Shown here: positions 27,277-54,034 of the stretch, one piece after another | Layout: every line of letters begins with the position of its first letter | Position numbering within the stretch: the stretch's first letter is position 1 | Source of the DNA: Robertkochia flava | GTDB taxonomy: Bacteria > Bacteroidota > Bacteroidia > Flavobacteriales > Flavobacteriaceae | Assembly (NCBI RefSeq): GCF_020166515.1 | Contig: NZ_JAINZT010000002.1 | Coordinates: 372,001-436,000, forward strand | Reading direction: 5' to 3' | DNA length: 64,000 bases | Notes under the pieces: model-generated | What the model was told of the DNA's origin: nothing | The model's input: only the letters and a program-made list of their open reading frames with translations | Database searches by the model: none | Program-made: the position numbers and the translations under genes

Positions 27277-27336
27277 TGCATTTCATCGAAAAAACAGGGT
27301 CATTAATCGAGGATGTAAGAAAATGTTGTATGTTTG
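27277..27336 (+). promoter_or_regulatory. Activator-type element with -7 promoter (copy 1)
   Basis: TGCATTTCATCGAAAAA at 27277-27293 is identical to bases 53976-53992. Two half-sites, TTCATCGA and TTAATCGA (TCATCGA at 27283, TAATCGA at 27304), lie 21 bp apart, and a TATGTTTG -7 box (27329-27336) lies 25 bp after the second. The other copy has the same 21- and 25-bp spacings. This looks like a dimer-activated promoter. The stretch 27218-27496 otherwise holds no credible gene. Confidence 0.55.
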
Positions 27337-27496
27337 ATAATGAAAGCAACCCTGACGTTCTTACATATAACGGAATTATAAAAGGAAGGATACACAACAA
27401 CAAAAAGGTGTTTTACAACTTAAATTCTTTTCGACAGAAGTTTAATCCTACTTTTATAATGCCTTGAAAGTCTAACCAGCTTTAACCTATTATGTT

Positions 27497-27637
27497 ATGA
27501 GTATGAATTCTGTAACCTACCAGAATGATGGTTCCAAGAGTCGGTCTGCTTTGTACGCCCTGAATGAGAACTTAAAAGCGACCTTGGAATTAAGTAAAAG
27601 TTTGATGTTAGTTGCTAAAAAGCTGTTTATGTTCTGA
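27497..27637 (+). CDS. Putative 46-residue small protein
   Basis: ATG 27497 opens a 46-codon frame ending at TGA 27635-27637, with product MSMNSVTYQNDGSKSRSALY and a hydrophobic/basic C-terminal half ending AKKLFMF. It sits about 155 bases after the shared promoter element and 48 bases before a strong terminator, so a transcript of about 380 bases begins and ends around it. The C-terminal LMLVAKKLFMF could be a short amphipathic or membrane-binding helix. I do not recognise it; the unit might instead be a regulatory RNA. Unusual in being a self-contained short unit in a 609-base gap between CoA-transferase and serine hydrolase genes. Confidence 0.45.
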   Translation: MSMNSVTYQNDGSKSRSALYALNENLKATLELSKSLMLVAKKLFMF

Positions 27638-27684
27638 TTGCCCCTCAGAATAGCCCCAAATGAAGCTTTTTGGTGTAAAACCTG

Positions 27685-27724
27685 AAAAGGAGACGTAAGA
27701 TCTTGATCTGCGTCTCCTTTTTTT
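27685..27724 (+). terminator. Strong intrinsic terminator after the 46-codon ORF
   Basis: An 11-bp stem (AAAAGGAGACG, 27685-27695, with CGTCTCCTTTT, 27711-27721) with a 15-base loop and a T-run to 27724. Confidence 0.88.
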
Positions 27725-27826
27725 GTTTAGTCCTGACCGGAATTTTTCCATAGGAAACGGATTAATTTTTTCATTGACCTTCTTACGACTAATTTTCATT
27801 AAATTTTACGTTTAAAAAATAACGCG

Positions 27827-28999
27827 ATGAGTATAAAAACCAACATTCCGTTTCAACTCCGGATTATATTTTTTATAGGGCTTATTACAAGTGTTCCGGT
27901 ATCGGCCCAATCTGATTATTATTTTCCGGACCGCAATGCGGTATGGGAAAAGGTGACTCCGGCCGAAGCGGGATTCAATGAGGAGAAACTACAGCAGGCC
28001 GTTAATTTTGCCCTGGCAAATGAATATGCCGGGGAACGTGATCTTAGAATTGCTATTTTAAAGGGGTTTGCGCATGAGCCTTACCACCAGATCTCCGGAC
28101 CTGTAAAAGAACGTGGAGGACCGGCAGGAATGATTCTGAAGAAAGGGTACGCGGTTGCTTCCTGGGGAGATCTGCGCAGGGTGGATATGACCTTTAGTGT
28201 AACCAAAAGCTATCTCTCTACGGTTGCAGGTTTAGCCTGGGACAAAAAGCTTGTTCGGGATGTAGACGACATGGTTTCACATTATGTGTGGGATGATACC
28301 TTTAAAGGAGCGCATAACAGCAAGATCACCTGGAGGCACTTGTTAAACCAGTCTTCAGACTGGTACGGAACCCTTTGGGGTGGGCATGACTGGGCCGACA
28401 GGCCACCAAAAGAGGGAGGTGTAGATGAATGGCGTAACCGTACCCTTCATGAGCCCGGCACCTTTTTTAAATACAATGACGTTCGGGTAAATCTTTTGGC
28501 CTATTCCTTACTCCAGGTATGGAGAAAGCCATTGCCGTCTGTGTTAAAGGAAAATATTATGGATCCTATAGGTGCCTCCTCCACCTGGCGATGGTTCGGA
28601 TATGACAATGCCTGGGTCAATGTAGACGGACTCAGGATGCAATCGGTCACAGGCGGCGGCCACTCCGGCGGAGGTCTTTTTATCAATACGGAAGACCATG
28701 CCCGTTTCGGACTGCTATTTCTGAACCGCGGGAAGTGGAAAGATCGTCAGTTAATTAGTGAAGACTGGATCAAATTGGCCACGGAGCCCTCTTTGGCAAA
28801 AGCAGACTATGGTTTTATGTGGTGGTTAAACAGCGAAAATCGTTTTAAGGATTTCTCGGATAATGTATTTATGGCAGCGGGGTTTGGAGGGAACTTTATT
28901 GTGGTTATTCCACAACATGATCTCGTGGTGGTTACCCGATGGCTGGAGCCTTCTCAGCTGGAAAGGTTTATGGAATTGGTGGCTGAGGCTGTCAATTGA
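27827..28999 (+). CDS. Secreted serine hydrolase, class C beta-lactamase/DD-peptidase fold
   Basis: A 390-residue exported protein with a signal peptide (about 1-28, ending VSAQ). The nucleophile motif SxxK is SVTK (124-127) in MTFSVTKSYLST. The usual second-motif Tyr lies in FFKYNDVRVN, a non-classical YND in place of YSN, and a GGGHSGGG loop is near 284-291. Family members include esterases, DD-peptidases and beta-lactamase-like enzymes, so resistance should not be assumed. It is one of three such proteins in the window. It is a single-gene unit after the small-ORF terminator. Confidence 0.85.
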   Translation: MSIKTNIPFQLRIIFFIGLITSVPVSAQSDYYFPDRNAVWEKVTPAEAGFNEEKLQQAVNFALANEYAGERDLRIAILKGFAHEPYHQISGPVKERGGPAGMILKKGYAVASWGDLRRVDMTFSVTKSYLSTVAGLAWDKKLVRDVDDMVSHYVWDDTFKGAHNSKITWRHLLNQSSDWYGTLWGGHDWADRPPKEGGVDEWRNRTLHEPGTFFKYNDVRVNLLAYSLLQVWRKPLPSVLKENIMDPIGASSTWRWFGYDNAWVNVDGLRMQSVTGGGHSGGGLFINTEDHARFGLLFLNRGKWKDRQLISEDWIKLATEPSLAKADYGFMWWLNSENRFKDFSDNVFMAAGFGGNFIVVIPQHDLVVVTRWLEPSQLERFMELVAEAVN

Positions 29000-29084
29000 T
29001 GTTTTACTGGTGATATCTTCTTAAGAGGGTTGCTCAAATTTGTATCCTTATAAAGGCTTCCTTAACAAAAGAATTAATAAAATA

Positions 29085-29109
29085 AACCCCTGGCTCGCGC
29101 TCAGGGGTT
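29085..29109 (-). terminator. Terminator between serine hydrolase and DinB genes
   Basis: An 8-bp stem (AACCCCTG, 29085-29092, with CAGGGGTT, 29102-29109) and a 9-base loop. The minus strand continues into TTTATTTTATT, so it fits best as the end of the DinB transcript, with possible use from both sides. Confidence 0.7.
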
Positions 29110-29132
29110 CGTTGATTTTGTGGTTTAATTAC

Positions 29133-29744
29133 TCAGGAAGTAGGGAAGTCCGGGTTATTTTTTATTTCGGTGATCTGTGCGTTGTGTCTGCTTTGATGAC
29201 CGGCACCGAAAAGCAGCATCTGGTAGCCGTCGAGTTTGCCAAATGGCATTTCAAAGTAATGGCTTCTGAGTTCCTTATCTGTTTTTTGAATGAAATTATG
29301 GGTTTCCCTTCTTGATTTTTTAAAGGCCTTCATGGTTTCCTTCGTACTTTCCCACTTATTGGAAGGTTCAAGGGGTTGGGAGGTCTTTACCTTCTGTTCC
29401 CGGTTAGTGATCATGGCGTAGACATCCTTGTCATCAAACTTCTTGTCTGGCGCAGCGGAAGGATCTACGGGACTTTCGAGTTCCTTTTGTAGCATTTCCC
29501 TGAACATATCCTCCGATAGCGCAAGGTGTTCTATACAGTCGGCAATAGACCAGCTTTCTGCAGTGGGTTTAAAGTTTAATTGCTCCTTACTTAGCCCTCT
29601 GATCTCTTCTTCGGTTTGCTCCATGGCCTTCTCATAAAGGTTCACGACGCGTTTTTTTTCGTCTTTACTTAGGGTCTGTGCATCCACCCAATGAAAGGTG
29701 AACATTAAAAGAAGAATAATCGCTGGTTGAATGGATCTTTTCAT
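29133..29744 (-). CDS. Secreted DinB-superfamily protein
   Basis: A 203-residue protein with a signal peptide (about 1-23, ending VDAQ) and a DinB-like four-helix bundle. Likely metal-binding His residues are in CIEHL (about residue 70) and HQSRHN (about 186-190). Cytoplasmic relatives are thiol S-transferases or metal-dependent hydrolases; those substrates are cytoplasmic, so this exported version has an unknown role. It shares the layout of a second DinB gene at 59965-60486. Single-gene unit. Confidence 0.82.
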   Translation of the reverse strand: MKRSIQPAIILLLMFTFHWVDAQTLSKDEKKRVVNLYEKAMEQTEEEIRGLSKEQLNFKPTAESWSIADCIEHLALSEDMFREMLQKELESPVDPSAAPDKKFDDKDVYAMITNREQKVKTSQPLEPSNKWESTKETMKAFKKSRRETHNFIQKTDKELRSHYFEMPFGKLDGYQMLLFGAGHQSRHNAQITEIKNNPDFPTS

Positions 29745-29870
29745 AGTGATGATTTTAAAACGGTAATTTACGAAAAAAAGTATTCAAAGCACTGGTAAAC
29801 AATGTATTAGTGATTTTACAACTTTTCAATTGCCGGAGTCTAAAGTGCCATGGCAGTAATTCCGAAGTAA

Positions 29871-29901
29871 AAAAATAGCCTGCAATTTGCAGGCTATTTT
29901 T
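29871..29901 (-). terminator. Terminator of the sdhCAB operon
   Basis: A 14-bp perfect stem (AAAAATAGCCTGCA, 29871-29884, with TGCAGGCTATTTTT, 29888-29901) and a 3-base loop, T-rich on both strands, directly after sdhB. Confidence 0.88.
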
Positions 29902-29928
29902 ATATGATAAACAGTGTTATAAACGGGT

Positions 29929-30675
29929 CTATCCCTTAAGCGAAGCTGCCAGATATTCGCGATTCATTCTCGCGATGTTTTCCAGGGAGATCCCTTTTGG
30001 ACATTCGATCTCACAGGCTCCGGTGTTGGTGCAGTTACCAAATCCTTCCAGGTCCATTTGACGAACCATGTTCATTACCCGGTCAGTAGCTTCCACCTGC
30101 CCTTGTGGAAGAAGGGCGAATTGGGAAACCTTTGCGGAGGTAAACAGCATGGCACTTGCGTTTTTACAAGCTGCAACACAGGCCCCGCAGCCGATACAGG
30201 TAGCGGCGTCGAATGCTTTGTCGGCATCGTGCTTATTTACGGGAATGGCATTGGCGTCAATGGTATTTCCGGAAGTATTTACCGAGATATATCCTCCCGC
30301 TTGCTGGATGCGGTCAAAAGAACTTCGGTCTACGATCAGGTCTTTTACTACCGGGAAAGCCTTTGCACGGAAGGGCTCAATGTATATGGTATCCCCATCC
30401 TTGAACTTTCGCATATGAAGCTGGCAGGTGGTCACCCCGCGGTCAGGCCCGTGAGGTTCGCCGTTGATCTGTAGCGAGCATGCGCCACAAATACCTTCGC
30501 GACAGTCGTGATCAAATTCTACCGGGTCATCGCCTTTGGCGATCAGATCCTCGTTAAGAACGTCAAGCATTTCCAGGAAAGACATGTCAGGAGATACATC
30601 ACTGATCTCGTAGTCTACCATCTTTCCAGCTGAATCGGCATCTTTCTGACGCCATATTTTGAGTTTTAAATTCAT
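29929..30675 (-). CDS. sdhB: Succinate dehydrogenase/fumarate reductase iron-sulfur subunit
   Basis: A 248-residue membrane-associated electron-transfer subunit of complex II. The N-terminal [2Fe-2S] ferredoxin domain has CREGICGAC and a later CQLH in the plant-type Cys pattern (about 58-86). The C-terminal domain has the [11 protein letters not shown] cluster motif (about 161-171) and further Cys in [15 protein letters not shown] for the second and third clusters. Length matches the family. Last gene of sdhC-sdhA-sdhB; its 54-base gap from sdhA is the widest in the operon. Confidence 0.96.
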
Positions 30676-30729
30676 AATCTTGGTGCTTTAAGCCTGCCCT
30701 GAAGCAGGGGTTGCGATCAGGCAACGGTT

Positions 30730-32733
30730 TTACTTATAACTTCTTGTTTTAAGTTCGATGTTCTCGTAGATGAGCTCTTCCTTGTGAAGTACGGCATCCT
30801 TGGGTTCGCCTTTGTATTCCCAGGCTGCGACATACTTAAAGTTTTCATCATCCCTGAGTGCTTCGCCCTCTTCGGTCTGGTACTCTTCTCTGAAGTGTCC
30901 TCCACAGGATTCATTTCGGTGCAGGGCATCTTTTGCGAAGAGCTCTCCGAGTTCCAGGAAGTCGGCAACGCGCATTGCCTTCTCCAGTTCAGAATTCTTT
31001 CCGCTCTCCTCTCCGGGAACACGTACGTTTTTGTAGAAGTCTTCGCGAAGGGCACTGATCTCCTCAATGGCTTCCTTTAGACCTTGCTCATTACGTGCCA
31101 TTCCGCATTTGTTCCACATGATCTTACCAAGTTTTTTATGGTAATAATCTACAGAATTGGTACCGTTGTTATTGATCAGTTTGCTTATTTGTGCTTTTAC
31201 ATGGTTCTCGGCTTCTTCAAATTCAGGAAGGTCGGTTGAGATCTCCCCGGTTCGGATGTCCTTAGACAGGTAATCCCCTATCGTGTAAGGCAATACGAAA
31301 TAACCGTCGGCCAGACCCTGCATTAATGCAGAGGCACCAAGCCTGTTCGCTCCGTGATCGGAGAAATTCGCCTCTCCGGCTGCATAACAGCCAGGGATGG
31401 TAGTCATCAGGTTGTAATCTACCCAGATACCTCCCATGGTATAATGTACCGCGGGATAGATCTTCATTGGGGTTTTATACGGATTTTCGTCAACGATCTT
31501 TTCATACATCTGGAAGAGGTTCCCGTATTTAGCCTCGATAACCTCTTCTCCAAGTTTTCTTACCTGGTCTTCGGTTGGGTTTTTAATACCGCTGGTTACC
31601 GCTTTTTCCCTTCCGTATCTCATGATGGCAGAAGAGAAGTCCAGGTAAACGGCCTCTCCTGTGGCATTTACTCCAAATCCGGCATCACAGCGTTCTTTGG
31701 CTGCTCTGGAAGCCACATCACGTGGTACCAGGTTACCAAAGGAAGGATATCTCCTCTCCAGGTAGTAATCGCGGTCTTCTTCCGCCAGCGCTGTTGGCTT
31801 AAGCTTTCCTTCCCGAATAGCCTTGGCGTCTTCCAGTTTTTTAGGAACCCAGATTCTTCCGTCGTTTCTCAGGGACTCCGACATCAGGGTTAGTTTAGAC
31901 TGATGCTCCCCGGAAACCGGGATACAGGTCGGGTGAATCTGTGTAAAGCAGGGATTAGCAAAATAGGCCCCCTTCTTGTGGATCTTCCAGGAAGCAGTAA
32001 CATTACTTCCCATGGCATTGGTAGACAGGAAGAATACATTTCCGTATCCTCCTGAAGCAATAACCACGGCATGAGCAGAATGTCTTTCGATCTCCCCGGT
32101 CACCAGGTTTCTGGCTATAATTCCTCGTGCTTTCCCATCCACGATCACCAGGTCGAGCATCTCATGACGGTTGTAGGATTTTATCTTTCCGCGGTTGATC
32201 TGTCGGTTCATGGCGCTGTAGGCTCCGAGAAGTAGCTGCTGTCCGGTTTGCCCTTTGGCATAAAAGGTTCTCGAAACAAGTACCCCACCAAAAGACCTGT
32301 TATCCAGCAGTCCACCGTATTCGCGTGCAAAAGGAACACCCTGAGCCACACACTGGTCGATAATGTTGGCAGATACCTCTGCGAGACGGTACACGTTGGC
32401 CTCCCTGGCGCGGTAGTCACCTCCTTTTACCGTATCGTAAAACAAGCGGTATACCGAATCTCCGTCACCCTGGTAGTTCTTTGCTGCGTTTATTCCCCCC
32501 TGGGCAGCGATCGAGTGCGCTCTTCTCGGGGAGTCCTGGTAACAAAAGGTCTTAACATTGTATCCCAGCTCGGCAAGAGTGGCTGCAGCCGAACCCCCTG
32601 CAAGTCCTGTACCAACTACGATAACGTCAATATTACGTTTGTTGGCAGGGTTAACCAGGTTAATTTCGTTCTTATGTTTAGTCCACATGTCGGCTAATGG
32701 CCCCTGTGGTATTTTAGAATCTAATGTTGACAT
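30730..32733 (-). CDS. sdhA: Succinate dehydrogenase/fumarate reductase flavoprotein subunit
   Basis: A 667-residue catalytic subunit that oxidises succinate to fumarate using covalently bound FAD. The dinucleotide-binding motif [19 protein letters not shown] is at about 40-58. The flavin-linking His segment [19 protein letters not shown] lies near 72-91, and the catalytic region contains HPTCIP and [27 protein letters not shown], in the C-terminal part, is the classic family motif. The longer N-terminal extension ([16 protein letters not shown]) is typical of the B-type complex II. Start is 11 bases after the sdhC stop. Confidence 0.97.
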
Positions 32734-32744
32734 CTTGTTCGCTG

Positions 32745-33407
32745 TTAAAATTGATTAAAATGATGGAATAGTGCAATAAATACAAACCCGAACGGGATCA
32801 CTACCGCAAAGGTTTTTCCCAGGGTTTTGATCGCCGGGGTGTACTTGTTGTTAACTCCCATGGTTTGAAAAGCAGACTGGAAGCCATGCCATAAATGCAG
32901 GGCCAGAAGCGCAAAGGAAACCACGTAAATTCCCGTCCTTACAGGACTCTCAAACTTATGCACCAACTCAGGAAAGTATCGTGCAGGATCTTCCGGATTG
33001 AATTCGATGTACTTGTATACCATTTCCGGCACCCAGAAATCGTAGAAGTGCAAACCAAGAAAAGCAAGAACGACCATTCCGGAAATGATCATGTTGCGGG
33101 AAACCCAGCTGGCATTGGCACTTCCCTTGTACATGGCATACTTGGCATTCCGCGCCTGTCTGTTCTTTAGTTCAAGGGCAAACCCCATCACAAAGTGAAA
33201 AACCACCCCAAAGATGAGGACAGGCTGTAGTAAAAATTGAACCAGGGCGTTGGTTCCCATGAAGTGAGAAATCTCATTGAAATTCTCCGGGCTCACCACC
33301 GATGTGAAGTTGATGACAAAGTGTTGTGTCAGAAAAATTATAAGGAATAGACCGGATAGGGCCATAGCGATCTTCCTTGCAATTGAAGTATTCAGTAATC
33401 CGCTCAT
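32745..33407 (-). CDS. sdhC: Succinate dehydrogenase cytochrome b subunit
   Basis: A 220-residue membrane anchor with five hydrophobic segments and several His available as axial ligands for two b hemes ([29 protein letters not shown]). The start chosen is ATG 33405-33407 ([12 protein letters not shown]), because the -7 promoter box for the operon lies at 33431-33438, inside the longer frame. A single cytochrome subunit without SdhD marks a B-type complex II. It heads the operon sdhC-sdhA-sdhB. Confidence 0.93.
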
Positions 33408-33430
33408 TAGTAATTTTTTGTTAGATATGG

Positions 33431-33461
33431 CAAAAATAACCCAGAGAGCACTTTTGCACAA
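33431..33461 (-). promoter_or_regulatory. sdhCAB promoter
   Basis: Minus-strand TATTTTTG (33431-33438) with a TTG (33459-33461) 20 bases upstream, a good match to the Bacteroidota promoter. It supports the shorter sdhC start at 33407. Confidence 0.65.
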
Positions 33462-33602
33462 GGTTTCCTCATCCTTTTAAAAGGAATTTAGAACAATTTT
33501 AAAGTAATTGATTTGTTTGTTTAAGGATTTAGCAATCAAACCCCTGCTATCATTGGACTATTGCTAAACGAAGTTGTCGAGAAATTGCAGCTTTAAAATA
33601 AT

Positions 33603-33629
33603 AAAACCCCGGAATTTTTCCGGGGTTTT
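33603..33629 (-). terminator. Terminator of the VPS10-repeat gene
   Basis: A 12-bp perfect stem (AAAACCCCGGAA, 33603-33614, with TTCCGGGGTTTT, 33618-33629) with a 3-base TTT loop. T-rich on both sides, so it can end transcripts in either direction. Confidence 0.88.
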
Positions 33630-33649
33630 AAAAAAACATTAACGATTAC

Positions 33650-36493
33650 CTACTTGATATTAAAATGCTTTTCAGAGCTTTGGTTTCCTTTTTCCACCTT
33701 GAGAAGGTAATCTCCTTTAGGTAAATAGGTTTTCCCGTTTGCCGAAGGCTTCACCGGGTTGTCTTTATTTTTCTTGTTGTAATTCTTAATTCCCTTTTCA
33801 CTAAGGGTCTGGTCAAATTCCAGTGCGTTAAAGCCCTTACTCACCTGAAGGTTGCCTTCTTGCAGTACGATGCCGGATTCATCCTTGATCACATAATTCA
33901 GACTGCCTTCCTCTTTGCTGTAGATGCTGTAATTCATCGAAGGCTCGAAAGGCTCGGACCAGGCTCTTGAATTACCCCATCGCGGAGAATAGCGTACATC
34001 TTCCGGCTGGAAAAGTGTGAGTTCGTCTTCCAGCATTACGGCATTGGCCTCCTGCATTGCTGCAATGTCTGCGATATAGATGCTTCGGCCATGTGTGCCT
34101 ATTACCAGGTCCTTTTCCCTTTCCTGTATTACAAGATCATGAACGGCCACCTCCGGAAGGTCGTTGCCAAAAGGCTCCCAGCTGTTACCCCTGTTGAAGC
34201 TCACATACAACCCGTTATCGGTTCCTGCAAAGAGGAGGTCCTGGTTTACAGGATCCTCAAGGATCACATTTACCGGAGACAACGGCAGGTTGCTGCTGAT
34301 GGCTTTCCAGGTTTTGCCCTGGTCCTCGCTCATATATACATAGGGTGTGAAATCGTCCCATCGATATCCGTTGAGGGCAACATAAACCCTTTCCCTGGAG
34401 TGTTGTGAGGCAGCTACCCTGCTTACCCACAGGTCTTTGGGAAGGTTGTCGGAAATGCGTTCCCAACTGCCTCCGCCGTTGGTGGATACATGGACAAGTC
34501 CATCATCACTCCCTGTGTACAGATGGCCAAATTTAAAGGGAGATTCACTGATGGTGGTCAGGGTTCCGTAAGCTACGTTGCCCGGTTTGCCGCCGTTGGT
34601 GAGGTCTTCCGAAATGGCTTCCCAGGAATCGCCCCGGTCAAGGCTGCGCATCAGCTTATTTCCACCCAGGTACAGAATGTCCGAATTGTGGGAAGAGAGC
34701 AGGATGGGCGTTTGCCAGTTAAAGCGATAGGGGCGTTCTCCAAGTTCGTGTTTGGGCTGGATATAGGTTCTCGACCCCTTATCCAGGTCAATGCGGAAAT
34801 AGTTTCCAAACTGAAAACCGGTGTAAACAATATTAGGGTGTTCGGGATCGGCTTCCACCTGCATTCCGTCGCCTCCCATGATCGACTTCCAGGGGTATTC
34901 CCCGTCCTGGTGCCAGCCGCTGTTCTCGCGCGCATTATGCGGAGCCATCCATACCCCGTTATCCTGCAACCCGCCGTAGATATTGTAGGGTTTTTGGTTG
35001 TCTACCTCAATGGCGTAAAACTGGCCGACTGCCGGGGTATTGTTCTTGATCCAGGAAGCCCCATCGTCATAGCTGATGTTAACTCCCCCGTCATTACCAT
35101 TGATGATATGCCCGGGTTTGTTGGGGTTGATCCAGATCGCATGGTGGTCTGAATGCACGTTCTCACCGTTAATGGATATCCAGGTCTTTCCTCCGTCGTC
35201 AGACCGGATAATGGGTACCCCGCCGGCATAAAGTTTCTCCGGGTTACCGGGGTCAACTGCGAGCTGACAGAAATAATACCCGTAACTGTAAAACAGATCT
35301 TCAATAGTTCCTTCATGGGTTTTTTTCCAGGTGTTACCCCCATCTGTACTTTTGTACACCTCAGCTCCGATCACGGGGGTGTCAAATAGCATGGCGTTGG
35401 CATCTTCAAGATATTTCGCAATATCTTCCGGTTTTACCGAACCACTGCTTACCAGTTGTTTGACATTTTCGGCACGGTACTTCTCCTGAAATCCGTTGGT
35501 CTTTAAGAAAGCATTCAGCTTTTTGTTGTCAAGCGCCAGGAAGTCTTCATTCGACATGGTTTTGAAGTCGTCTTTCTGAAGGTTGTCCGACTCCTTGCTG
35601 TCTTCCTTTATCTCTTGGTGATATTGATTGTCGTGAATGGCGTAAATGGTATTGGCATCGTAAACAGCTATTCCGATCCGGCCTACACCTTCTCCGGTAG
35701 GAAATCCACTTTCCTCTGTTGAGACCAGGTCCCAGGTCTCGCCTCCGTCTGTACTTTTGTAAATTCCCGAGCCTTCACCGTTCCCGGTGAAATTCCATGC
35801 TTTACGATCTTTCTGCCAGGCAGATGCGAAAAGTACATCGGGGTTGCCAGGTGTCATTACCAGGTCTATTATTCCCGTTTCATCATTGATAAAAAGCGTA
35901 TTTTTCCAGGTTTTTCCACCGTCGGTAGACTTATAAACCCCTCTTTCCGAATTGGATGAATACAAATGTCCGGTTACTCCGATCCAGATGGTATCCGGAT
36001 CTTCAGGATGTAAAACGATGCGGCCAATGTGGTGGGAATCGGGGAGTCCCATATGCGTCCAGGTTTTACCATGGTCGTCCGATCGTAATACGCCGATACC
36101 GGCATAAGAAGATCTGGAAGCGTTATTCTCTCCTGTTCCGGCCCAGATGATCTGGTTTTTCCAGTCTACTGCGATATCACCGATATTCTGCGTCGGGGCA
36201 TTGTCCATAACAGGGGTAAAAGTGGTTCCGTTGTTTTTGGTATGCCACAATCCGCCACTGGCATAGGCCACGTAAAATTCTGTGGGATCTTGTGGATTAA
36301 CAGCCAGGTCGGTTACGCGACCGCTCATAATGGTGGGCCCTGCATTTTTCAGCGGAATGGCCTGAACCCTGGATTCGGATTCCAGTAAAGATTTTTTCCC
36401 AATAGCGTCCAGGTAGGCCTCAGGGCTCGTAGCAGGTTGCTGAGCCTGAACCTGTAGTCCGGCCATCAGGGATAGAAGTAAGGCGTATTTCAT
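33650..36493 (-). CDS. Secreted VPS10/sortilin-type BNR-repeat protein
   Basis: A 947-residue exported protein with a signal peptide (1-18, ending QVQAQ). About ten Asp-box/BNR repeats of the form S-x-D-x-G-x-x-W are visible (for example STDGGKTWKN, SDDHGKTWTH, STDGGNTWKK, SEDQGKTWKA, SFNRGNSWEP), so it folds into beta-propellers of the VPS10/sialidase-like type. An unusual helical insertion (roughly residues 298-380, many K/E/D) interrupts the repeats. C-terminal residues about 830-947 form a separate domain. Annotated relatives are called glycosyl hydrolase, but I see no proven catalytic triad. Single gene. Confidence 0.87.
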   Translation of the reverse strand: MKYALLLSLMAGLQVQAQQPATSPEAYLDAIGKKSLLESESRVQAIPLKNAGPTIMSGRVTDLAVNPQDPTEFYVAYASGGLWHTKNNGTTFTPVMDNAPTQNIGDIAVDWKNQIIWAGTGENNASRSSYAGIGVLRSDDHGKTWTHMGLPDSHHIGRIVLHPEDPDTIWIGVTGHLYSSNSERGVYKSTDGGKTWKNTLFINDETGIIDLVMTPGNPDVLFASAWQKDRKAWNFTGNGEGSGIYKSTDGGETWDLVSTEESGFPTGEGVGRIGIAVYDANTIYAIHDNQYHQEIKEDSKESDNLQKDDFKTMSNEDFLALDNKKLNAFLKTNGFQEKYRAENVKQLVSSGSVKPEDIAKYLEDANAMLFDTPVIGAEVYKSTDGGNTWKKTHEGTIEDLFYSYGYYFCQLAVDPGNPEKLYAGGVPIIRSDDGGKTWISINGENVHSDHHAIWINPNKPGHIINGNDGGVNISYDDGASWIKNNTPAVGQFYAIEVDNQKPYNIYGGLQDNGVWMAPHNARENSGWHQDGEYPWKSIMGGDGMQVEADPEHPNIVYTGFQFGNYFRIDLDKGSRTYIQPKHELGERPYRFNWQTPILLSSHNSDILYLGGNKLMRSLDRGDSWEAISEDLTNGGKPGNVAYGTLTTISESPFKFGHLYTGSDDGLVHVSTNGGGSWERISDNLPKDLWVSRVAASQHSRERVYVALNGYRWDDFTPYVYMSEDQGKTWKAISSNLPLSPVNVILEDPVNQDLLFAGTDNGLYVSFNRGNSWEPFGNDLPEVAVHDLVIQEREKDLVIGTHGRSIYIADIAAMQEANAVMLEDELTLFQPEDVRYSPRWGNSRAWSEPFEPSMNYSIYSKEEGSLNYVIKDESGIVLQEGNLQVSKGFNALEFDQTLSEKGIKNYNKKNKDNPVKPSANGKTYLPKGDYLLKVEKGNQSSEKHFNIK

Positions 36494-36591: not shown

Positions 36592-36611
36592 GGGAAATTT
36601 AAAAAATAGAT

Positions 36612-47056: not shown

Positions 47057-47064
47057 TATTTTTG
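47057..47064 (+). promoter_or_regulatory. -7 promoter box of sufS
   Basis: TATTTTTG matches TAnnTTTG, 14 bases before the sufS ATG. Confidence 0.55.
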
Positions 47065-47078
47065 CGTAAAGAATTGTT

Positions 47079-48293
47079 ATGATCGACGTTAAGAGCATAC
47101 GGGAAGATTTTCCCATTCTCAAAAGAGAGATCAACGGCTATCCATTGGTATACCTGGATAATGCGGCTACCTCCCAAACCCCGAAGCAGGTAATCGATAC
47201 CATTGTTGATTATTATTCGAATTATAATGCCAACATCCATCGGGGGGTACATACCCTTTCACAGGAAGCTACCGATAAATATGAGATGGCCCGGAAGACC
47301 ATCCAAAAGCATTTCAATGCAAAGCATTCTTATGAGATCCTCTTTACCTCAGGAACCACCCATGGGATCAATCTCGTGGCCAGTGGTTTTGCTGCCTTGC
47401 TTAAGCCCGGAGACGAGTTGTTGGTGTCGGCCATGGAACATCATTCCAATATAGTGCCCTGGCAAATGCTGTGTGAAAAAACAGGAGCTGTTTTAAAGGT
47501 CATCCCTATGAATGAGGAAGGGGACCTGGTAATGGATTCCTATAAGGCGCTTCTTAACGATAAGACCAAACTGGTTTTCTGCAATCATATTTCCAATGCT
47601 CTGGGCTCGATTAATCCTGTAGAAGAGATCATAGCCGGAGCCCACGCCGTAGGCGCTGCTGTGCTGATAGACGGCGCGCAGGCATGTCCTCACCTCAAGG
47701 CAGATGTTCAGGCGCTGGATGTAGATTTTTATACGGTATCTGCCCATAAAATGTGTGGTCCTACCGGGGTGGGGGTTTTGTACGGAAAAGAGGAATGGTT
47801 GCGAAAGTTACCCCCTTACCAGGGTGGAGGAGAAATGATAGCCGAGGTTAGTTTTGAAAAGACGACCTACGCTGATCTGCCTCACAAATTCGAGGCAGGA
47901 ACTCCTAATATATGCGGCGGAATTGCTTTCGGAGCAGCCGTGGATTACCTGAACGGAATAGGGATGGATGCAATAGCTGCCTACGAGCAGGAATTGCTGC
48001 AATACGCTACCGGTAAACTCCTGGAGATTCCCGGGGTGAGGATCTTCGGAACCTCTGCCAATAAAACTTCCGTGATCTCCTTTAATATTGAAGGGATTCA
48101 CCCTTATGATATAGGTGCTATACTCGATAAACTGGGCGTTGCTGTGCGCACCGGCCACCATTGTGCCCAACCTATTATGGATTACTACAAGATCCCGGGT
48201 ACGGTGAGGGCGAGCTTTGCCTTTTACAACACCAGGGAAGAGGTGGACACTTTTATTGAAGCGGTTAAAAGGGCCAGAAACATGCTGTTGTAA
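47079..48293 (+). CDS. sufS: Cysteine desulfurase SufS
   Basis: A 404-residue cytoplasmic PLP enzyme that pulls sulfur from cysteine for cluster assembly and passes it to SufE. The PLP Lys is Lys224 in VSAHKMCGPTG, and the persulfide Cys is Cys362 in TGHHCAQP, the short loop of the SufS (group II) type. Length fits. It is separated from sufD by the serine hydrolase and has its own promoter; a long hairpin follows it. Confidence 0.97.
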   Translation: MIDVKSIREDFPILKREINGYPLVYLDNAATSQTPKQVIDTIVDYYSNYNANIHRGVHTLSQEATDKYEMARKTIQKHFNAKHSYEILFTSGTTHGINLVASGFAALLKPGDELLVSAMEHHSNIVPWQMLCEKTGAVLKVIPMNEEGDLVMDSYKALLNDKTKLVFCNHISNALGSINPVEEIIAGAHAVGAAVLIDGAQACPHLKADVQALDVDFYTVSAHKMCGPTGVGVLYGKEEWLRKLPPYQGGGEMIAEVSFEKTTYADLPHKFEAGTPNICGGIAFGAAVDYLNGIGMDAIAAYEQELLQYATGKLLEIPGVRIFGTSANKTSVISFNIEGIHPYDIGAILDKLGVAVRTGHHCAQPIMDYYKIPGTVRASFAFYNTREEVDTFIEAVKRARNMLL

Positions 48294-48323
48294 GAATAGA
48301 GAGTATTCAGATCTCATTTTAAG

Positions 48324-48362
48324 GCGCGTTGTTTAATTGTTGATAACTTTTAAACAACGCGC
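48324..48362 (+). terminator. Long hairpin after sufS
   Basis: A 13-bp perfect stem (GCGCGTTGTTTAA, 48324-48336, with TTAAACAACGCGC, 48350-48362) with a 13-base loop. No pure T-run follows (TTCTTCGTTT), so it may be a terminator or an mRNA-stability stem. Confidence 0.55.
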
Positions 48363-48503
48363 TTCTTCGTTTAAAAGAGGGATCTGATCGATGAAATGCA
48401 TGTAGCTTCCAGGGCGAAACGGCATTTTTGTACTAAACAACTTGTTAAACTATCGTTAAAATAATGTATCTTTTCTTTCTATTAATCTAATATCTAATCA
48501 TTT

Positions 48504-49478
48504 ATGAAAAGAATATTTTTAAGTCTCGCGGCGGCATTTCTCTTGTTTTCCTGCGAGCAGGGTTCCTCCGGCGAAGAGTTCAATACGGATCAAAGCAGTG
48601 AATTGCAGGAGCAATTTGAATTTGCAGACGATCAATGTGGTACCATGGGGGTTCTCGATGAAAAACTGGCATCCGATCCGGATCTAGCCCTGAACATGCA
48701 GGCAGTGGAATTGCACACCAGTTCTGTTATGAAAAACGGGCTGTCTCAGCGTTTGGTAAATGGAGTCATTGAAATCCCGGTGGTTTTTCATATCATTTAC
48801 CGCACGGAAAGCGAGAACATTCCGCTTTCACAAATCCAGGAACAGATCGATGCCCTTAATGAAGATTTTAATCTTCAGAATCCTGGGAGATCTACGATTC
48901 CTGCCGAATTTCAAAGTGTGGAATCCAACATCGGCATCCGTTTCGTGTTGGAAGATGTGATCCGGGTGAACTCCAGAAACCGTCAATGGAGGCCGGATGA
49001 TTCTATGAAATTTACGGCATCAGGAGGTAGTGATGTGGTCAACCCTCAGGAGTTTCTCAATATCTGGGTGGTTAATAATATGCCTTATCGTGGAGGTAAT
49101 ATTCTCGGCTATGCCCAATTCCCCGGAGGCGACTGGGCAACAGACGGCGTTGTTCTCGATCATCGCTTCACCGGAAACACCGTGTACTCCACGGGAAGAA
49201 CGGCAACCCATGAGGTGGGTCACTGGCTGAATTTACGTCACATTTGGGGTGATGGAGGTTGTGGAGCTTCCGATTTTGTAGCCGACACCCCCGATGCCGA
49301 CGGCCCAAGCAGAGGGTGTCCGACTTATCCTACCGTAAGTTGTAATACCAATGACATGACCATGAACTTTATGGATTACTCCAATGATCCTTGTCTCAAT
49401 ATGTTTACAGAAGGGCAGAAAGTAAGGATGTTCGCAAATTTTGAAAATGGCGGATTTCGGGCTACAATGGCCGATTAA
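48504..49478 (+). CDS. M43 pappalysin/cytophagalysin-type zinc metalloprotease lipoprotein
   Basis: A 324-residue lipoprotein with lipobox LLFSC (Cys17) and an acidic region after it, so it is probably surface-exposed. The zinc motif HEVGHWLNLRH (His236, Glu237, His240, His246) is complete, and a Met-turn lies in MNFMDYSND. At 243 the usual Gly of HExxHxxGxxH is Asn, an unusual change. Six or so Cys (for example GDGGCGAS and SCNTND) may form disulfides. It sits between sufS and sufE; nothing links it functionally to SUF. Confidence 0.85.
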   Translation: MKRIFLSLAAAFLLFSCEQGSSGEEFNTDQSSELQEQFEFADDQCGTMGVLDEKLASDPDLALNMQAVELHTSSVMKNGLSQRLVNGVIEIPVVFHIIYRTESENIPLSQIQEQIDALNEDFNLQNPGRSTIPAEFQSVESNIGIRFVLEDVIRVNSRNRQWRPDDSMKFTASGGSDVVNPQEFLNIWVVNNMPYRGGNILGYAQFPGGDWATDGVVLDHRFTGNTVYSTGRTATHEVGHWLNLRHIWGDGGCGASDFVADTPDADGPSRGCPTYPTVSCNTNDMTMNFMDYSNDPCLNMFTEGQKVRMFANFENGGFRATMAD

Positions 49479-49506
49479 TTACCGGGTTTTGGTAAGAATT
49501 AGCTCT

Positions 49507-49534
49507 AAAGGCACCAAGAAGGGTGCCTTTTTTT
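49507..49534 (+). terminator. Terminator after the M43 protease gene
   Basis: A 9-bp stem (AAAGGCACC, 49507-49515, with GGTGCCTTT, 49522-49530) with a 6-base loop and a T-run to 49534. Confidence 0.85.
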
Positions 49535-49558
49535 ATACATTTAAACGAAATCTCGCCT

Positions 49559-49987
49559 ATGAAAATTTTAACCACGATCCTTTTTTTAACGCTGATTACA
49601 GGAGGATGCCTTTTCCAGGACCGGGAAGTGGTTCGTGAATTGCGCTATGAAGCCTTTACCAGGGGAAGTTCTTTTGAGGTCCTGGTGACTAGGGATAGTA
49701 TAAAAGTAAGAGAAGGGTTCAGGGGAACACCCTGGAGCAGCAGGAAATTAACACCCTCTGAATGGGATAATTTACTGAAGCGGCTTGAGGGGGTTGATGT
49801 ACAGGGGATGAAATCCCTGGAGCCACCTTCCTCCAAACGGTATTCAGATGCTGCGGCTCATGCACTAGTGCATGTACTTACACCATCTGAGGAGTATACT
49901 TCTGTTGAATTTGATCATGAGAATCCGCCGGAAGCGCTTGAATCATTGGTTAAAGCTATGATAACATTGGCAGAAACAGTTGAATAG
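49559..49987 (+). CDS. Small lipoprotein of unknown function
   Basis: A 142-residue protein starting at ATG 49559 (MKILTTILFLTLITGGC), so the mature form begins at the lipobox Cys17. The body is mixed alpha/beta with KLTPSEWDNLLKRLEGV and a final DHENPPEALESLVKAM stretch. A longer upstream frame (from 49523) is less likely, because it crosses the terminator end. I do not recognise the family. It is separated from sufE by 39 bases that hold sufE's promoter, so it is not part of the SUF transcript. Confidence 0.7.
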   Translation: MKILTTILFLTLITGGCLFQDREVVRELRYEAFTRGSSFEVLVTRDSIKVREGFRGTPWSSRKLTPSEWDNLLKRLEGVDVQGMKSLEPPSSKRYSDAAAHALVHVLTPSEEYTSVEFDHENPPEALESLVKAMITLAETVE

Positions 49988-50002
49988 CAGGTATACTTGT
50001 TG

Positions 50003-50010
50003 TATTTTTG
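50003..50010 (+). promoter_or_regulatory. -7 promoter box of the sufE operon
   Basis: TATTTTTG matches TAnnTTTG, 16 bases before the sufE ATG at 50027. A TTG about 20 bases upstream may serve as -33. Confidence 0.55.
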
Positions 50011-50026
50011 CGACAAAACAAAGTCT

Positions 50027-50449
50027 ATGACCATAAAAGAAATCCAGGACGCCATTGTAGATGAATTCTCCATGTTTGACGATTGGATGCAGCGGTATGA
50101 ATATATGATCGAGCTGGGTAAGTCGTTACCTCTTATCGATGAGAAATATAAGACCGATGACAACCTGATTAAGGGTTGTCAGAGCAAGGTTTGGGTACAC
50201 GCAGCACTGGATGGCGATAAGCTTGTTTTTACTGCAGACAGTGATGCGATCATCACCAAAGGGATCATTGCCATTCTTATCAGAGCATTCTCCGGGCAAT
50301 CGCCAAAAGCCATCATGGAAGCCGATACAGCATTTATCGATGAGATCGGGCTTAAGGAACATCTTTCGCCAACAAGGGCAAATGGTCTGGTGAGCATGAT
50401 CAAGCAACTGAAGATGTATGCCATAGCCTACCAAACACAACTTAATTAA
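50027..50449 (+). CDS. sufE: Sulfur transfer protein SufE
   Basis: A 140-residue cytoplasmic protein that accepts sulfane sulfur from SufS and hands it to SufB. The start is ATG 50027 (MTIKEIQDA); a longer frame begins before the promoter. The active Cys is Cys51 in IKGCQSKVWV, the same place as in the enteric protein. Homologous blocks LGKSLPLIDEKYKTDDNL and MIKQL are present. The DUF59 gene follows after 6 bases. Confidence 0.95.
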   Translation: MTIKEIQDAIVDEFSMFDDWMQRYEYMIELGKSLPLIDEKYKTDDNLIKGCQSKVWVHAALDGDKLVFTADSDAIITKGIIAILIRAFSGQSPKAIMEADTAFIDEIGLKEHLSPTRANGLVSMIKQLKMYAIAYQTQLN

Positions 50450-50455
50450 ACAGCA

Positions 50456-50782
50456 ATGAGCGAAACAACTATAGATACTACCGAGTTGGGAGAAAAGATC
50501 GTTAAGGTGTTAAAGACCATTTACGATCCGGAGATCCCTGTTGATATATATGAATTGGGACTTATTTACGACGTTTTTGTAAATGAGGATCACGACGTAA
50601 AGATCCTGATGACCCTGACCACACCCAACTGTCCGGTGGCAGAAACCCTGCCTGTGGAAGTGGAGGAAAAGGTAAAAACCATTGAACAGGTAAAGGACGC
50701 TGAGGTAGAGATCACCTTTGATCCGCCATGGAGCCAGGACCTGATGAGTGAGGAGGCCAAACTGGAACTCGGGTTACTTTAA
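50456..50782 (+). CDS. DUF59/MIP18-family Fe-S assembly protein (SufT-like)
   Basis: A 108-residue member of the DUF59 family, which helps mature iron-sulfur proteins and is often encoded in SUF clusters (SufT). Conserved features are YDPEIPVDIYELGLIYDV (about 22-39) and the Cys in LTTPNCPVAETLP (about 58-70). Length is normal. It follows sufE directly, in agreement with the pathway. Confidence 0.93.
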   Translation: MSETTIDTTELGEKIVKVLKTIYDPEIPVDIYELGLIYDVFVNEDHDVKILMTLTTPNCPVAETLPVEVEEKVKTIEQVKDAEVEITFDPPWSQDLMSEEAKLELGLL

Positions 50783-50923
50783 TTCCGAAGCCCGATACAG
50801 GTGCACAGGAAATTTTAAACGGACTTCGGATTTCAGGTTATGGTGCGATTGTGCGAAGTAGTGCCACATCCTTTGAAATCCGGTTTCATCCCTTTCACAA
50901 TTAACAGAATAGATATTTTTATT

Positions 50924-51427
50924 TTGGACGAAATCAGAAATCGCGTAGCAGAAAGCAAGCTGGTAACTTTTGATCTGGAAGACCTCTACCCGGAAGGGGA
51001 ACGGGTACTTCTGGACATTAAAGACTGGCTTTATGAAGGCGTTTTGTTAAGGGAAAAAGAGTTCAGGGAAAATTTAAACGCGGTAGACTGGACAGCTTTT
51101 ACCGGGAAATACGTGGCCTTGCACTGTTCTACAGAGGCCATTGTGCCGGCCTGGGCCTTTATGCTGATTGCCACTCATCTGGCTCCCTATGCGAAGAAGA
51201 CCATTACAGGCAACCTGGAACAACTGGAGAGTGCCATTTATCAGGAAGCTATTGCAGATCTCGACCTGGAGTACCTGAGGGACCTTCCGGTTATAGTTAA
51301 AGGGTGTTCTAAAAAGCCTGTCCCCCAAAACGCATATCTTTTTCTTATAAAAAAATTGCATACGGTAGCGAAAACCATAATGTATGGGGAGGCCTGTTCA
51401 TCTGTGCCTTTGTACAAACGTCGATAA
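50924..51427 (+). CDS. DUF2480-family protein
   Basis: A 167-residue protein of a family I recognise as DUF2480, found in SUF clusters of Bacteroidota with no known function. The start is taken as TTG 50924, giving MDEIRNRVAESKLVTFDLED; a longer frame (from 50840) extends into the upstream gap and lacks homologous look. Conserved landmarks are LEDLYPEGERVLLDIKDWLYEG (about 16-37) and VALHCSTEAIVPAWAFMLIA. Two Cys near the C-terminus (KGCSKKPV, GEACSSV) may have a cluster or metal role. Confidence 0.8.
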   Translation: MDEIRNRVAESKLVTFDLEDLYPEGERVLLDIKDWLYEGVLLREKEFRENLNAVDWTAFTGKYVALHCSTEAIVPAWAFMLIATHLAPYAKKTITGNLEQLESAIYQEAIADLDLEYLRDLPVIVKGCSKKPVPQNAYLFLIKKLHTVAKTIMYGEACSSVPLYKRR

Positions 51428-51516
51428 TTTGACGGATATTTCGTCTTTCCGAAGTTGTATTGATTATATTTAAGAAGTGATTCTTAGGGGTTTATCTCCT
51501 TTTCTAATGCTACACT

Positions 51517-52446
51517 ATGAAACATTTCTTATTATTCATCCTGATGGGTGCCCTCACCTTATCTGTTCAGGGACAAACCGTGGAGGAGCTCAAAGCCCTT
51601 AAAGCCCAAAAACAGGATTCTCTTGATGCCTTACAAGGCCAGATCGACGACATTGATAAAAAAATTAAGGAATTTCCCGGCTGGAAATTTGGAGCAATTG
51701 CCACGGCAGGGTTCAATGTTTCCCAATTCAGTAACTGGTATGCCCAGGGTTCGCCAAACGTGAACTCCGGGAAGATCGGAGTTATTTTTAATGGGTTTGC
51801 GAATCTGGACCGGGAGAAGTTTTTCTGGCGAAATGCTGCCAATATCAATCTTCAGTGGATCAAGTTCGACGATAAGGACAATCCCGATGATGAGGATGGG
51901 TACCGGGAGGCTACCGATGTCTTCAATATTAATTCTCTGTATGGTTATAAACTAAATGAAAAGTTCGCCCTCTCCGCCATGGGAGAATACCGGACTACCA
52001 TATTGAGTAATTTTAATGATCCCGGTTACCTGGACCTGGGGGTGGGGGGCACCTGGACCGCCATCAAGGATGAATTGGTCCTGGTGGTGCATCCGCTCAA
52101 CTACAATTTCGTTTTCAGTGATGAAGATGATATTTTCACCTCATCTGCGGGTTGTAAGGTGCTGGCGGATTATACAAAAGCCATTGGAAAACTGAAGTTC
52201 AAGTCAAATTTTTCTGGATTTTTCAGTTATCGCGATTCCAATTACTCCAACTGGACCTGGACAAATACCCTGGGATATACTTTGTGGAAGAATATCGGTA
52301 TGGGGTTTGAATTTGGACTGAGAGATAATAAACAGGAAGCCCTCAATTACGCCTTGAACACCCTGGATATCGCAGATGCAGATTATGACAATATCGACAA
52401 TAACCTGCAGTCGTACTGGCTCTTTGGAGTGAACTACAGCTTTTAA
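51517..52446 (+). CDS. DUF3078-family outer-membrane beta-barrel protein
   Basis: A 309-residue protein with a signal peptide (about 1-19, ending SVQGQ), a short coiled coil (about 22-55, KALKAQKQDSLDALQGQ) and a beta-barrel ending in LFGVNYSF, a terminal aromatic residue typical of outer-membrane assembly. It is of the type named DUF3078. In Bacteroidota this gene often follows the SUF/DUF2480 genes, as here. Likely an OM porin-like or structural protein; no transport substrate can be deduced. Confidence 0.82.
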   Translation: MKHFLLFILMGALTLSVQGQTVEELKALKAQKQDSLDALQGQIDDIDKKIKEFPGWKFGAIATAGFNVSQFSNWYAQGSPNVNSGKIGVIFNGFANLDREKFFWRNAANINLQWIKFDDKDNPDDEDGYREATDVFNINSLYGYKLNEKFALSAMGEYRTTILSNFNDPGYLDLGVGGTWTAIKDELVLVVHPLNYNFVFSDEDDIFTSSAGCKVLADYTKAIGKLKFKSNFSGFFSYRDSNYSNWTWTNTLGYTLWKNIGMGFEFGLRDNKQEALNYALNTLDIADADYDNIDNNLQSYWLFGVNYSF

Positions 52447-52453
52447 AATATAG

Positions 52454-52482
52454 AAAAAGGCAGCCTTGAGGCTGCCTTTTTT
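52454..52482. terminator. Shared terminator of DUF3078 and hflX genes
   Basis: A 12-bp perfect stem (AAAAAGGCAGCC, 52454-52465, with GGCTGCCTTTTT, 52470-52481), 4-base loop, T-rich on both strands. The hflX stop codon begins at its right edge. Confidence 0.88.
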
Positions 52483-53698
52483 ATGAAGGGTCGATTTCTT
52501 CGTACTCGGGATAGAGAAAGTTATTATAGGGAAATCTCGTGATGTGAATATCCCGTACCGCCTGGTATACCCGTTTCCTGAATTCTTCCAGGTTTTCTTT
52601 ATTCAGGGCAGAAATGAACAAGGCGTTATCTCCGATACGTCCCATCCAGGTATTTTTCCACTCTTCAAGGGTGAAATGGCGACTGGTTTTTTCGGTGATA
52701 AGGTCGTCTTCTTCTATGGTTTCATGCTCATAGGCATCGATCTTGTTAAAAACCATGATCGTAGGCTTATCCGCACTGTCAATCTCATCCAGGATCTTAT
52801 TTACCGAGGCAATATGCTCCTCGAAATTGGGGTGCGAGATGTCTACTACATGAAGCAGGAGATCGGCCTCCCTTACTTCATCCAGGGTACTTTTAAAGGA
52901 TTCCACGAGCTGGGTGGGAAGCTTTCTGATAAATCCAACGGTATCACTTAATAGAAAAGGCAGGTTGCCGATTACCACCTTGCGTACCGTAGTGTCCAGG
53001 GTGGCAAATAATTTGTTCTCCGCAAATACATTGCTCTTACTGATCACGTTCATCAGGGTCGATTTCCCGACATTGGTATATCCAATTAGGGCTACCCGGA
53101 CCAGGGCCCCACGGTTCCCCCTTTGTGTTTCCATTTGCTTATCGATCTTGGCCAGTTTTTTCTTTAAAAGACTGATGCGGTCACGAACGATACGACGGTC
53201 GGTCTCGATCTCGGTTTCCCCCGGTCCGCGCATCCCAATACCTCCTCGTTGCCGCTCCAGGTGAGTCCATAGTCCGGCAAGGCGCGGCAGTAAATACTGA
53301 TATTGCGCCAGTTCTACCTGGGTTCTTGCGTAGCTGGTTTGGGCCCTTTGTGCAAAAATGTCGAGTATCAGGCTCGTCCGGTCCAGAACCTTACAGCGCA
53401 GGATCCGTTCGATGTTCTTCTGTTGTGCTGGTGATAATTCGTCGTCAAAGATCACCGTTCCTACGTCATGCTCCTTAATAAACGAAAGAACCTCTTCCAT
53501 CTTTCCGGAACCTATAAAGGTTTTGGGATTGGGAATCTCAATTTTTTGAGTAAATCTACCTACAACCTCGCCTCCTGCCGTATAGGCCAGAAATTCCAAC
53601 TCATCAAGGTATTCCTTAGATTTTTCCTCATCCTGCTCCTGGTTGATCACCCCAATGAGCACAGCTTTTTCATAATCTAATGTCTTCTTTTCAAGCAT
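52481..53698 (-). CDS. hflX: GTPase HflX
   Basis: A 405-residue translational GTPase-like protein that binds the 50S ribosome and can split stalled or heat-damaged ribosomes. G1 is GYTNVGKST (near 208-216), G3 is DTVGF, G4 is NKID, with an N-terminal HflX-type domain (about 1-195) that carries ARTQVELAQYQYLLPRL. Length fits. A TACCTTTG -7 box (53715-53722) lies 17 bases before its ATG. Divergent from the subtilase gene. Confidence 0.95.
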   Translation of the reverse strand: MLEKKTLDYEKAVLIGVINQEQDEEKSKEYLDELEFLAYTAGGEVVGRFTQKIEIPNPKTFIGSGKMEEVLSFIKEHDVGTVIFDDELSPAQQKNIERILRCKVLDRTSLILDIFAQRAQTSYARTQVELAQYQYLLPRLAGLWTHLERQRGGIGMRGPGETEIETDRRIVRDRISLLKKKLAKIDKQMETQRGNRGALVRVALIGYTNVGKSTLMNVISKSNVFAENKLFATLDTTVRKVVIGNLPFLLSDTVGFIRKLPTQLVESFKSTLDEVREADLLLHVVDISHPNFEEHIASVNKILDEIDSADKPTIMVFNKIDAYEHETIEEDDLITEKTSRHFTLEEWKNTWMGRIGDNALFISALNKENLEEFRKRVYQAVRDIHITRFPYNNFLYPEYEEIDPS

Positions 53699-53714
53699 AT
53701 ATAAAATTCTAATA

Positions 53715-53722
53715 CAAAGGTA
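53715..53722 (-). promoter_or_regulatory. -7 promoter box of hflX
   Basis: The minus strand reads TACCTTTG, matching TAnnTTTG, 16-17 bases before the hflX ATG. Confidence 0.5.
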
Positions 53723-53975
53723 CAGAAATGAAATTTTATCAGGAGAGAAAGAATTGCGGTCATTTCTATTGGTTTCCAGCTTCCCCGGAAGGTATAGGCA
53801 GGGTCATGGAGGGACTCCAAAGTTTCAGGCAGGGCCCCAAAGTATGTGATAAGGCATTTCTTACAAGAGAATGCTTGAGTCCGTTTAAATGCAAAAAAAG
53901 CCGATAAAATGTTTAATTGTTGTAGGAAATAGACTATTATTGTAGTGTAATTCTTAAAAAACCGATTCAAAACCC
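53723..53975. other. Intergenic region between hflX and the subtilase gene
   Basis: The 359-base gap 53699-54057 holds the hflX promoter at its left end and the activator element at its right end. In between I see no credible gene; a 130-codon minus-strand frame that crosses the whole gap is not supported by any family resemblance. Confidence 0.5.
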
Positions 53976-54034
53976 TGCATTTCATCGAAAAAGTAAGGGT
54001 TTTAATCAGAGATTGTAAGTTAAGTATTACATTG
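53976..54034 (+). promoter_or_regulatory. Activator-type element with -7 promoter (copy 2)
   Basis: TGCATTTCATCGAAAAA (53976-53992) is identical to copy 1 at 27277. The half-sites TTCATCGA and TTAATCAG (TCATCGA at 53982, TAATCAG at 54003) are 21 bp apart, and a -7-like TACATTG (54028-54034) lies 25 bp after the second, as in copy 1. It is placed to activate the subtilase gene. Confidence 0.55.

Follow-up and report, generated by a model that had tools for sequence, protein, structure and literature searches.

A putative LytTR-type activator operator at two promoters of Robertkochia flava and its recurrence in Flavobacteriaceae

Operators of LytTR proteins are described in passages of PMC4847170 as two repeats of 9-11 nt each, separated by a spacer of 11-13 nt. 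According to the same passages, YpdB of E. coli binds a direct repeat of GGCATTTCAT with N11 between the copies, its A site must be occupied before B is bound, yhjX is said to be its sole direct target, and the mechanism of LytTR activators at promoters was termed still obscure in 2016 (PMC4847170). Here we describe a promoter element that occurs twice in a stretch of 64,000 nucleotides from Robertkochia flava, hereafter the window (C6:372001-436000 of a genome of 3,453,190 bases in 13 contigs). The element lies at a fixed promoter distance in most sampled genera of Flavobacteriaceae, often ahead of genes for secreted or surface proteins, which suggests a common regulator. It is probably an activator operator of LytTR type, still to be called putative, with a LytTR response regulator encoded beside rpsF as the candidate protein that would bind it. 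Our searches of an open-licence library did not bring up the element, and among the papers listed for CATTTCATCG, TTTCATCGA or TTTCATCGAAAA no title or abstract start named a flavobacterial regulatory motif.

The element at two promoters of the window

The original prediction had placed an exact 17-mer, TGCATTTCATCGAAAAA, at 27277-27293 and 53976-53992. Scanning the window returned it at 27277 and at 53976, and that observation is confirmed, as is the distance of 21 bp between half-sites in both copies (27282/27303 and 53981/54002). The second half-site is at both places a weak direct repeat, TTAATC, 21 bp past the strong one. The parts are listed below with scores from R1, a sequence-only model of both half-sites for which 42 training sites were picked by hand from 62.

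27277..27293, + strand: site 1, strong half-site TGCATTTCATCGA with A tract; best R1 match in the own genome (E 2.3e-7), site in the training set
27303..27310, + strand: site 1, weak half-site TTAATCGA, 21 bp after TTCATCGA (27282-27289)
27329..27336, + strand: site 1, -7 box TATGTTTG, register +50
53976..53992, + strand: site 2, strong half-site TGCATTTCATCGA with A tract; R1 E 1.9e-6, site in the training set
54002..54009, + strand: site 2, weak half-site TTAATCAG, 21 bp after the first half-site (53981-53988)
54028..54035, + strand: site 2, -7-like box TACATTGC, register +50, imperfect

Both -7 boxes lie 52 bp from the element start, as had been claimed, and 50 bp from the C of CATTT; from the start of the second half-site the distance is 26 bp and not the 25 bp given earlier. 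The search pattern proposed for the box, TAnnTTTG, holds for TATGTTTG at site 1, whereas TACATTGC at site 2 fits TAnnTT and not TAnnTTTG. Its counterparts in two genus mates (G199 and G200, loci L057 and L064) read TACATTAG in the same register.

Within the window by itself the repeat stands out only mildly: allowing up to three mismatches gives 3 matches where 0.40 are expected, a number that 2 of 100 shuffles also attain. It was therefore tested in genomes, and its significance derives from enrichment in the own genome and in those of the family, not from the window count. With at most two mismatches the strong half-site has 17 matches in the own genome, several of them intragenic by eye, against 3 for its reversed control. 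Further copies had been anticipated, as part of a small regulon possibly spanning the genome. The literal query TTCATCGA-N12..14-TTAATC yields the two window sites only, whereas R1 finds more, and the resulting small set of sites does span the genome, and Flavobacteriaceae as well. Three R1 sites are strong, namely window site 1 (2.3e-7), C10:120385 (2.9e-7) and window site 2 (1.9e-6), with scores that are partly built in because all three were training sites. Lower ones follow at C9:585856 (6.9e-4) and C12:112572 (0.003), with weaker sites after these.

Geometry of the element and its spread across Flavobacteriaceae

In the search of relatives that had been suggested, CATTTCATCGAWWAA has 256 matches over 199 family genomes, distributed over 114 of the 199, against 19 for the reversed control (taken by eye from the table). 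Of 296 genomes sampled across the phylum, 30 belong to Flavobacteriaceae; the stricter 17-mer TGCATTTCATCGAWWAA occurs in 11 of these 30 and in 0 of the 266 sampled outside that family (split by eye). Within the genus, all five genomes, the own one counted, contain the core motif. Site 1 together with its short open reading frame (ORF) is present in all four genus mates (G199, G200, G201, G202). Two of the four, G199 and G200, also carry site 2, there with a gene that by eye looks subtilase-like; an exact pattern did not find site 2 in G201 and G202. Counterparts with a site were found for the C10 target in G199 and G201, and for the C9 target in G201 (by eye). Judged from sequence, the element is a real, family-wide promoter element.

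Its geometry was read from 104 distinct sites selected on the first half-site only, orthologous sites being counted uncollapsed. A crude ORF test split promoter-like from intragenic sites: a first rule put 83 outside and 21 inside ORFs of at least 110 aa, a second 89 and 15, and the 15 thus dropped include the G200 ortholog of site 1 (L059). The 89 promoter-like sites and 56 more found by R1 (70 loci considered, 14 left out as already used) form a set of 145. Because they were found with R1, the 56 are independent for the -7 box and not for the second half-site.

The general arrangement is a strong half-site, RTGCATTTCATCGAWWAA, followed in many sites by a weaker direct repeat 20 or 21 bp on, with a -7 box that tends to +40 or +50. 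A second copy (TTTCATCGA, at least 6 of 9 positions) stands at spacing 20 in 18 and at spacing 21 in 25 of the 89 sites, two groups that may overlap; other spacings from 14 to 57 were seen in 0-5 sites each, save 42 with 7. Assigned site by site, the period is 21 in 36/89 (ties counted here) and 20 in 24/89. Among the 145 sites, 25 have a -7 box (at least 5 of 6 positions) beginning at +40 and 30 have one beginning at +50. These peaks lie one helical turn apart and appear in both site sets; the highest peak in 300 shuffles of +34..+80, which preserve base content and not dinucleotides, was 10. Of the 26 sites with TA at +40, 12 read TAnnTTCG and 7 TAnnTTTG (19 together); of the 43 at +50, TAnnTTTG and TAnnTTTA account for 10 each (20 together). 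TAnnTT falls at +39-42 or +49-52 in 83 of 145 sites and at neither register in 62. Finally, ORFs of at least 80 aa begin 50-150 nt downstream of 49 of the 104 sites against 21 when mirrored, or 21 against 13 for the 44 loci with equal flanks.

Two further parts that had been thought to be shared were lost in this comparison. Near the element AGGGT stands only at offsets 17 and 18, once each among the 145 sites, these being the two window sites, and for GTAAG no offset exceeds 3 of 145; both are ascribed to chance. A coupling of period and register, 20 bp going with +40 and 21 bp with +50, seemed clear by eye in the first set and was rejected after failing in the 56 further sites (6 and 6 versus 6 and 13, Fisher p 0.45). 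What persists of the proposed two-turn, LytTR-type activator are the two half-sites about two turns apart, the fixed -7 distance and the LytTR type as the favoured one, but the family uses spacings of 20 or 21 and registers of both +40 and +50. The earlier interpretation is partly supported.

Candidate regulator and competing explanations

The LytTR type of this putative operator is likely, since its half-site shares GCATTTCAT with that of YpdB and the period of 21 bp is the same. Two subunits would then sit on one face of the helix. With the -7 box at +40 or +50 the bound protein would lie over or beside the position of the -33 element, which the weak half-site adjoins or overlaps. A response regulator of this type would occupy the strong half-site before the weak one, an order that we infer, as for YpdB, because a pair of strong and weak half-sites would suit it, and once bound it would recruit RNA polymerase.

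The own genome encodes seven LytTR proteins. Best candidate among them, held with less confidence than the operator type, is L023, a LytTR response regulator next to rpsF (by eye; G000:C11:231589-232275, minus strand), which is outside the window as the original prediction had implied for the regulator. The ORF list of its 3.3-kb locus shows no adjoining kinase gene. If L023 is the regulator, the targets switched on in the own genome would be the subtilase, the unit with the 46-aa ORF, the CHU_C protein with PorP/SprF, the 476-aa lipoprotein-like protein and a few others. The reading at its fullest, a family-wide regulon in which the rpsF-side LytTR regulator serves secreted and surface proteins and short unannotated peptides through an asymmetric, two-register operator with a half-site near that of the pyruvate-responsive YpdB, is tentative, its chances lying a little below even.

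Orthologs of the four LytTR proteins other than the membrane-bound L024-L026 were sought in the same 199 genomes at a threshold of 1e-80, and R1 sites with E up to 0.003 were used for co-occurrence. Such sites are present in 129/145 genomes with L023 and in 10/54 without it, counts uncorrected for phylogeny or genome size. Divided by ortholog, they occur in 12/14 genomes with L023 only, 7/17 with L020 only and 3/37 with neither.

A number of observations weigh against this assignment or against the LytTR geometry. L023 similarity tracks phylogeny, and the 54 genomes that lack L023 include many small ones; the association with sites is confounded for these reasons. The genomes that supplied R1 training sites are also included in the counts. 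G088 and G194 (87% and 96% complete) have 4 and 5 sites and no L023 ortholog. A strong site upstream of an L023 ortholog was found in G190 only (L198 2763-2800), between rpsF and the LytTR gene and directed towards rpsF; 21 other L023-upstream sources gave two weak matches at best (E 0.007 and 0.011), and 80 further L023 loci no site up to E 0.1. Autoregulation of L023 as a general feature was rejected accordingly. Compared as whole proteins, YpdB is closer to the own L022 than to L023. As to the operator, a clear second half-site is missing in 29/89 sites, and the 20-bp period is 1 bp below the range given for LytTR sites.

For the protein comparison we used b2381, annotated PyrR, which we take to be YpdB of E. 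coli; when only the LytTR domains were compared, the seven own proteins were not decisively told apart. The neighbourhood of sites was also tried as a guide to the regulator and abandoned: among the loci then compared one LytTR gene lay near a site (L092), and no pattern emerged.

The strongest competitor is a real operator bound by another LytTR protein such as L020 or L022, which we consider unlikely. The own genome offers seven such proteins to choose from, L020 is found at 1e-80 or better in 148/199 genomes, including G088 and G194, which have sites and lack L023, and L022 is the best whole-protein match to YpdB. However, sites accompany L023 without L020 (12/14) more than L020 without L023 (7/17), and close L022 orthologs are rare, with one other genome near 1e-86 and the next best near 1e-52. 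By eye, L020 lies in C8 downstream of small membrane proteins resembling the 2TM type, and L022 in C11 adjoins a histidine kinase.

Half-sites of AraC (I1-I2) can be about 21 bp apart and lie next to the -33/-35 region. Direct repeats, a two-turn period and an adjoining promoter would suit an AraC-type activator as well, and AraC-like genes exist in the own genome (two in L160, by eye). This is nevertheless improbable, since the half-site is one compact block rather than two boxes one turn apart, and it matches a known LytTR half-site. A chance or dispersed repeat without regulatory role, to which the mildly unusual window count might point, can be dismissed in view of the family enrichment, the spacing of the second half-site, the -7 register and the conservation at orthologous genes.

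Genes behind the sites and comparison with known systems

A subtilase secreted by the type IX secretion system (T9SS) and an unannotated short unit had been named as the genes under joint control. Both stand downstream of sites, but the T9SS tail of the subtilase is only weak. The features around them are:

27241..27266, + strand: terminator-like hairpin and T run (stem 27241-27260), 3' of the upstream CoA-transferase gene (CoA_trans) and just ahead of site 1
27394..27419, + strand: another direct repeat with a period of 21 bp, ACAAC-N16-ACAAC, within the leader of the 46-aa ORF (by eye)
27449..27456, + strand: possible own -7 box of the 46-aa ORF, TACTTTTA (by eye)
27497..27637, + strand: 46-aa ORF with C-terminus KKLFMF; counterparts in genus mates, under constraint
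27688..27725, + strand: terminator-like inverted repeat GGAGACG...CGTCTCC with T run, after the 46-aa ORF (by eye)
54058..56436, + strand: subtilase of 792 aa with fn3 domain (Peptidase_S8 1.5e-26) and weak T9SS type A sorting tail (TIGR04183 18.1 bits, under the cut-off of 23)

The 46-aa ORF has counterparts of 45-48 aa in 4/4 genus mates, with homology judged by eye and a conserved C-terminus. A rate test was possible for three of the five genus genomes, where ORF lengths are equal. It shows constraint, with a ratio of nonsynonymous to synonymous change (pN/pS) of ~0.41-0.48 for the whole ORF and 0.15-0.24 for its last 24 codons in three pairwise comparisons (own, G200, G201). The window's ORF has no NCBIfam match. 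This unannotated family (window, L059, L060, L061 and L062; ~44 aa in L092) ends in (K/R)K-L-(F/L)-M-(F/L). The ACAAC repeat and TACTTTTA have counterparts in G200, G201 and G202 (by eye), the repeat spacing being 18 in G199; together they perhaps form a second regulated promoter, and site 1 may therefore be one of two. Inverted repeats are also visible by eye in the site 1 leader. The window scan gave no Rfam family at gathering threshold, and a hairpin scan with loops of 3-8 only did not report the GGAGACG...CGTCTCC repeat. In another genus (G026, locus L092) a site lies between a CoA-transferase and a beta-lactamase-like hydrolase, in the order seen at site 1, and the interval also holds a short ORF ending in RKLFML and one further gene; a second G026 site precedes a subtilase with a Por_Secre_tail domain.

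Elsewhere in the own genome, C10:120385 is followed by a protein of 716 aa that has a CHU_C type IX secretion domain, and then by a PorP/SprF protein. The C9 and C12 sites are followed by a 476-aa lipoprotein-like and a 786-aa protein, both without Pfam match, and the weak site C8:16015 has no close same-strand ORF of at least 150 aa downstream. Family targets examined include subtilases, a CAP protein, a putative esterase, an M43 metallopeptidase, a leucine-rich-repeat protein (further members by eye) and several short or uncharacterised families. Besides CHU_C, T9SS sorting tails among them comprise one above and one just under the Pfam cut-off. Since the Pfam sample was 19 proteins, 7 of them without a match at 0.001, the secreted or surface nature of targets is a tendency and not a measured enrichment; three of the 19 are neighbours, in the window or elsewhere in the own genome, of site 1 or of other sites. 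Proteins of 55 aa (L028, L117, L120), ~90 aa (L034, L036, L041, L080) and 294 aa (L073, L116, L118, L128) recur directly downstream of sites in different genera. One scanned member of each group had no NCBIfam match, and the scanned 88-aa and 294-aa proteins had no Pfam match.

If the LytTR reading is true, surface and secreted proteins of a large family of environmental bacteria would have a defined, testable operator together with a candidate regulator, and the regulon could be read from sequence in many Flavobacteriaceae genomes. Promoters of the two registers could then naturally be compared to learn how activators of LytTR type act on them.

Passages of PMC9723704 contain no such activator element, and 'LytTR' appears nowhere in its main text; they describe SM5 of F. 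psychrophilum, an alternative -7 motif TAnnTTGY (PMC9723704). Flavobacterial sigma-A promoters have the -7 box TAnnTTTG; the boxes of our element at +40 and +50 are TAnnTTTG, as at site 1, or near variants (TTCG, TTTA, TTAG). The site 2 box TACATTGC at 54028 fits TAnnTTGY, but its membership in SM5 is doubtful because two genus mates read TACATTAG there. In relation to LytTR operators in general, a period of 21 fits the range of repeat and spacer, whereas a half-site of 10 nt would leave some sites with a spacer of 10 nt. The window sites do not hold two good copies of GGCATTTCAT, the first half-site matching GCATTTCAT and the second being degenerate in both.

The closest likeness is to the YpdB operator of the E. 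coli yhjX promoter. GGCATTTCAT and the flavobacterial half-site share GCATTTCAT, both elements are direct repeats with a 21-bp period, and YpdB is a LytTR response regulator that induces its target, as is proposed here. The flavobacterial element differs in its conserved block, which extends to TGCATTTCATCGAWWAA, in its period of 20 or 21, in its flavobacterial -7 box, and in having several putative targets where YpdB is said to have yhjX alone.

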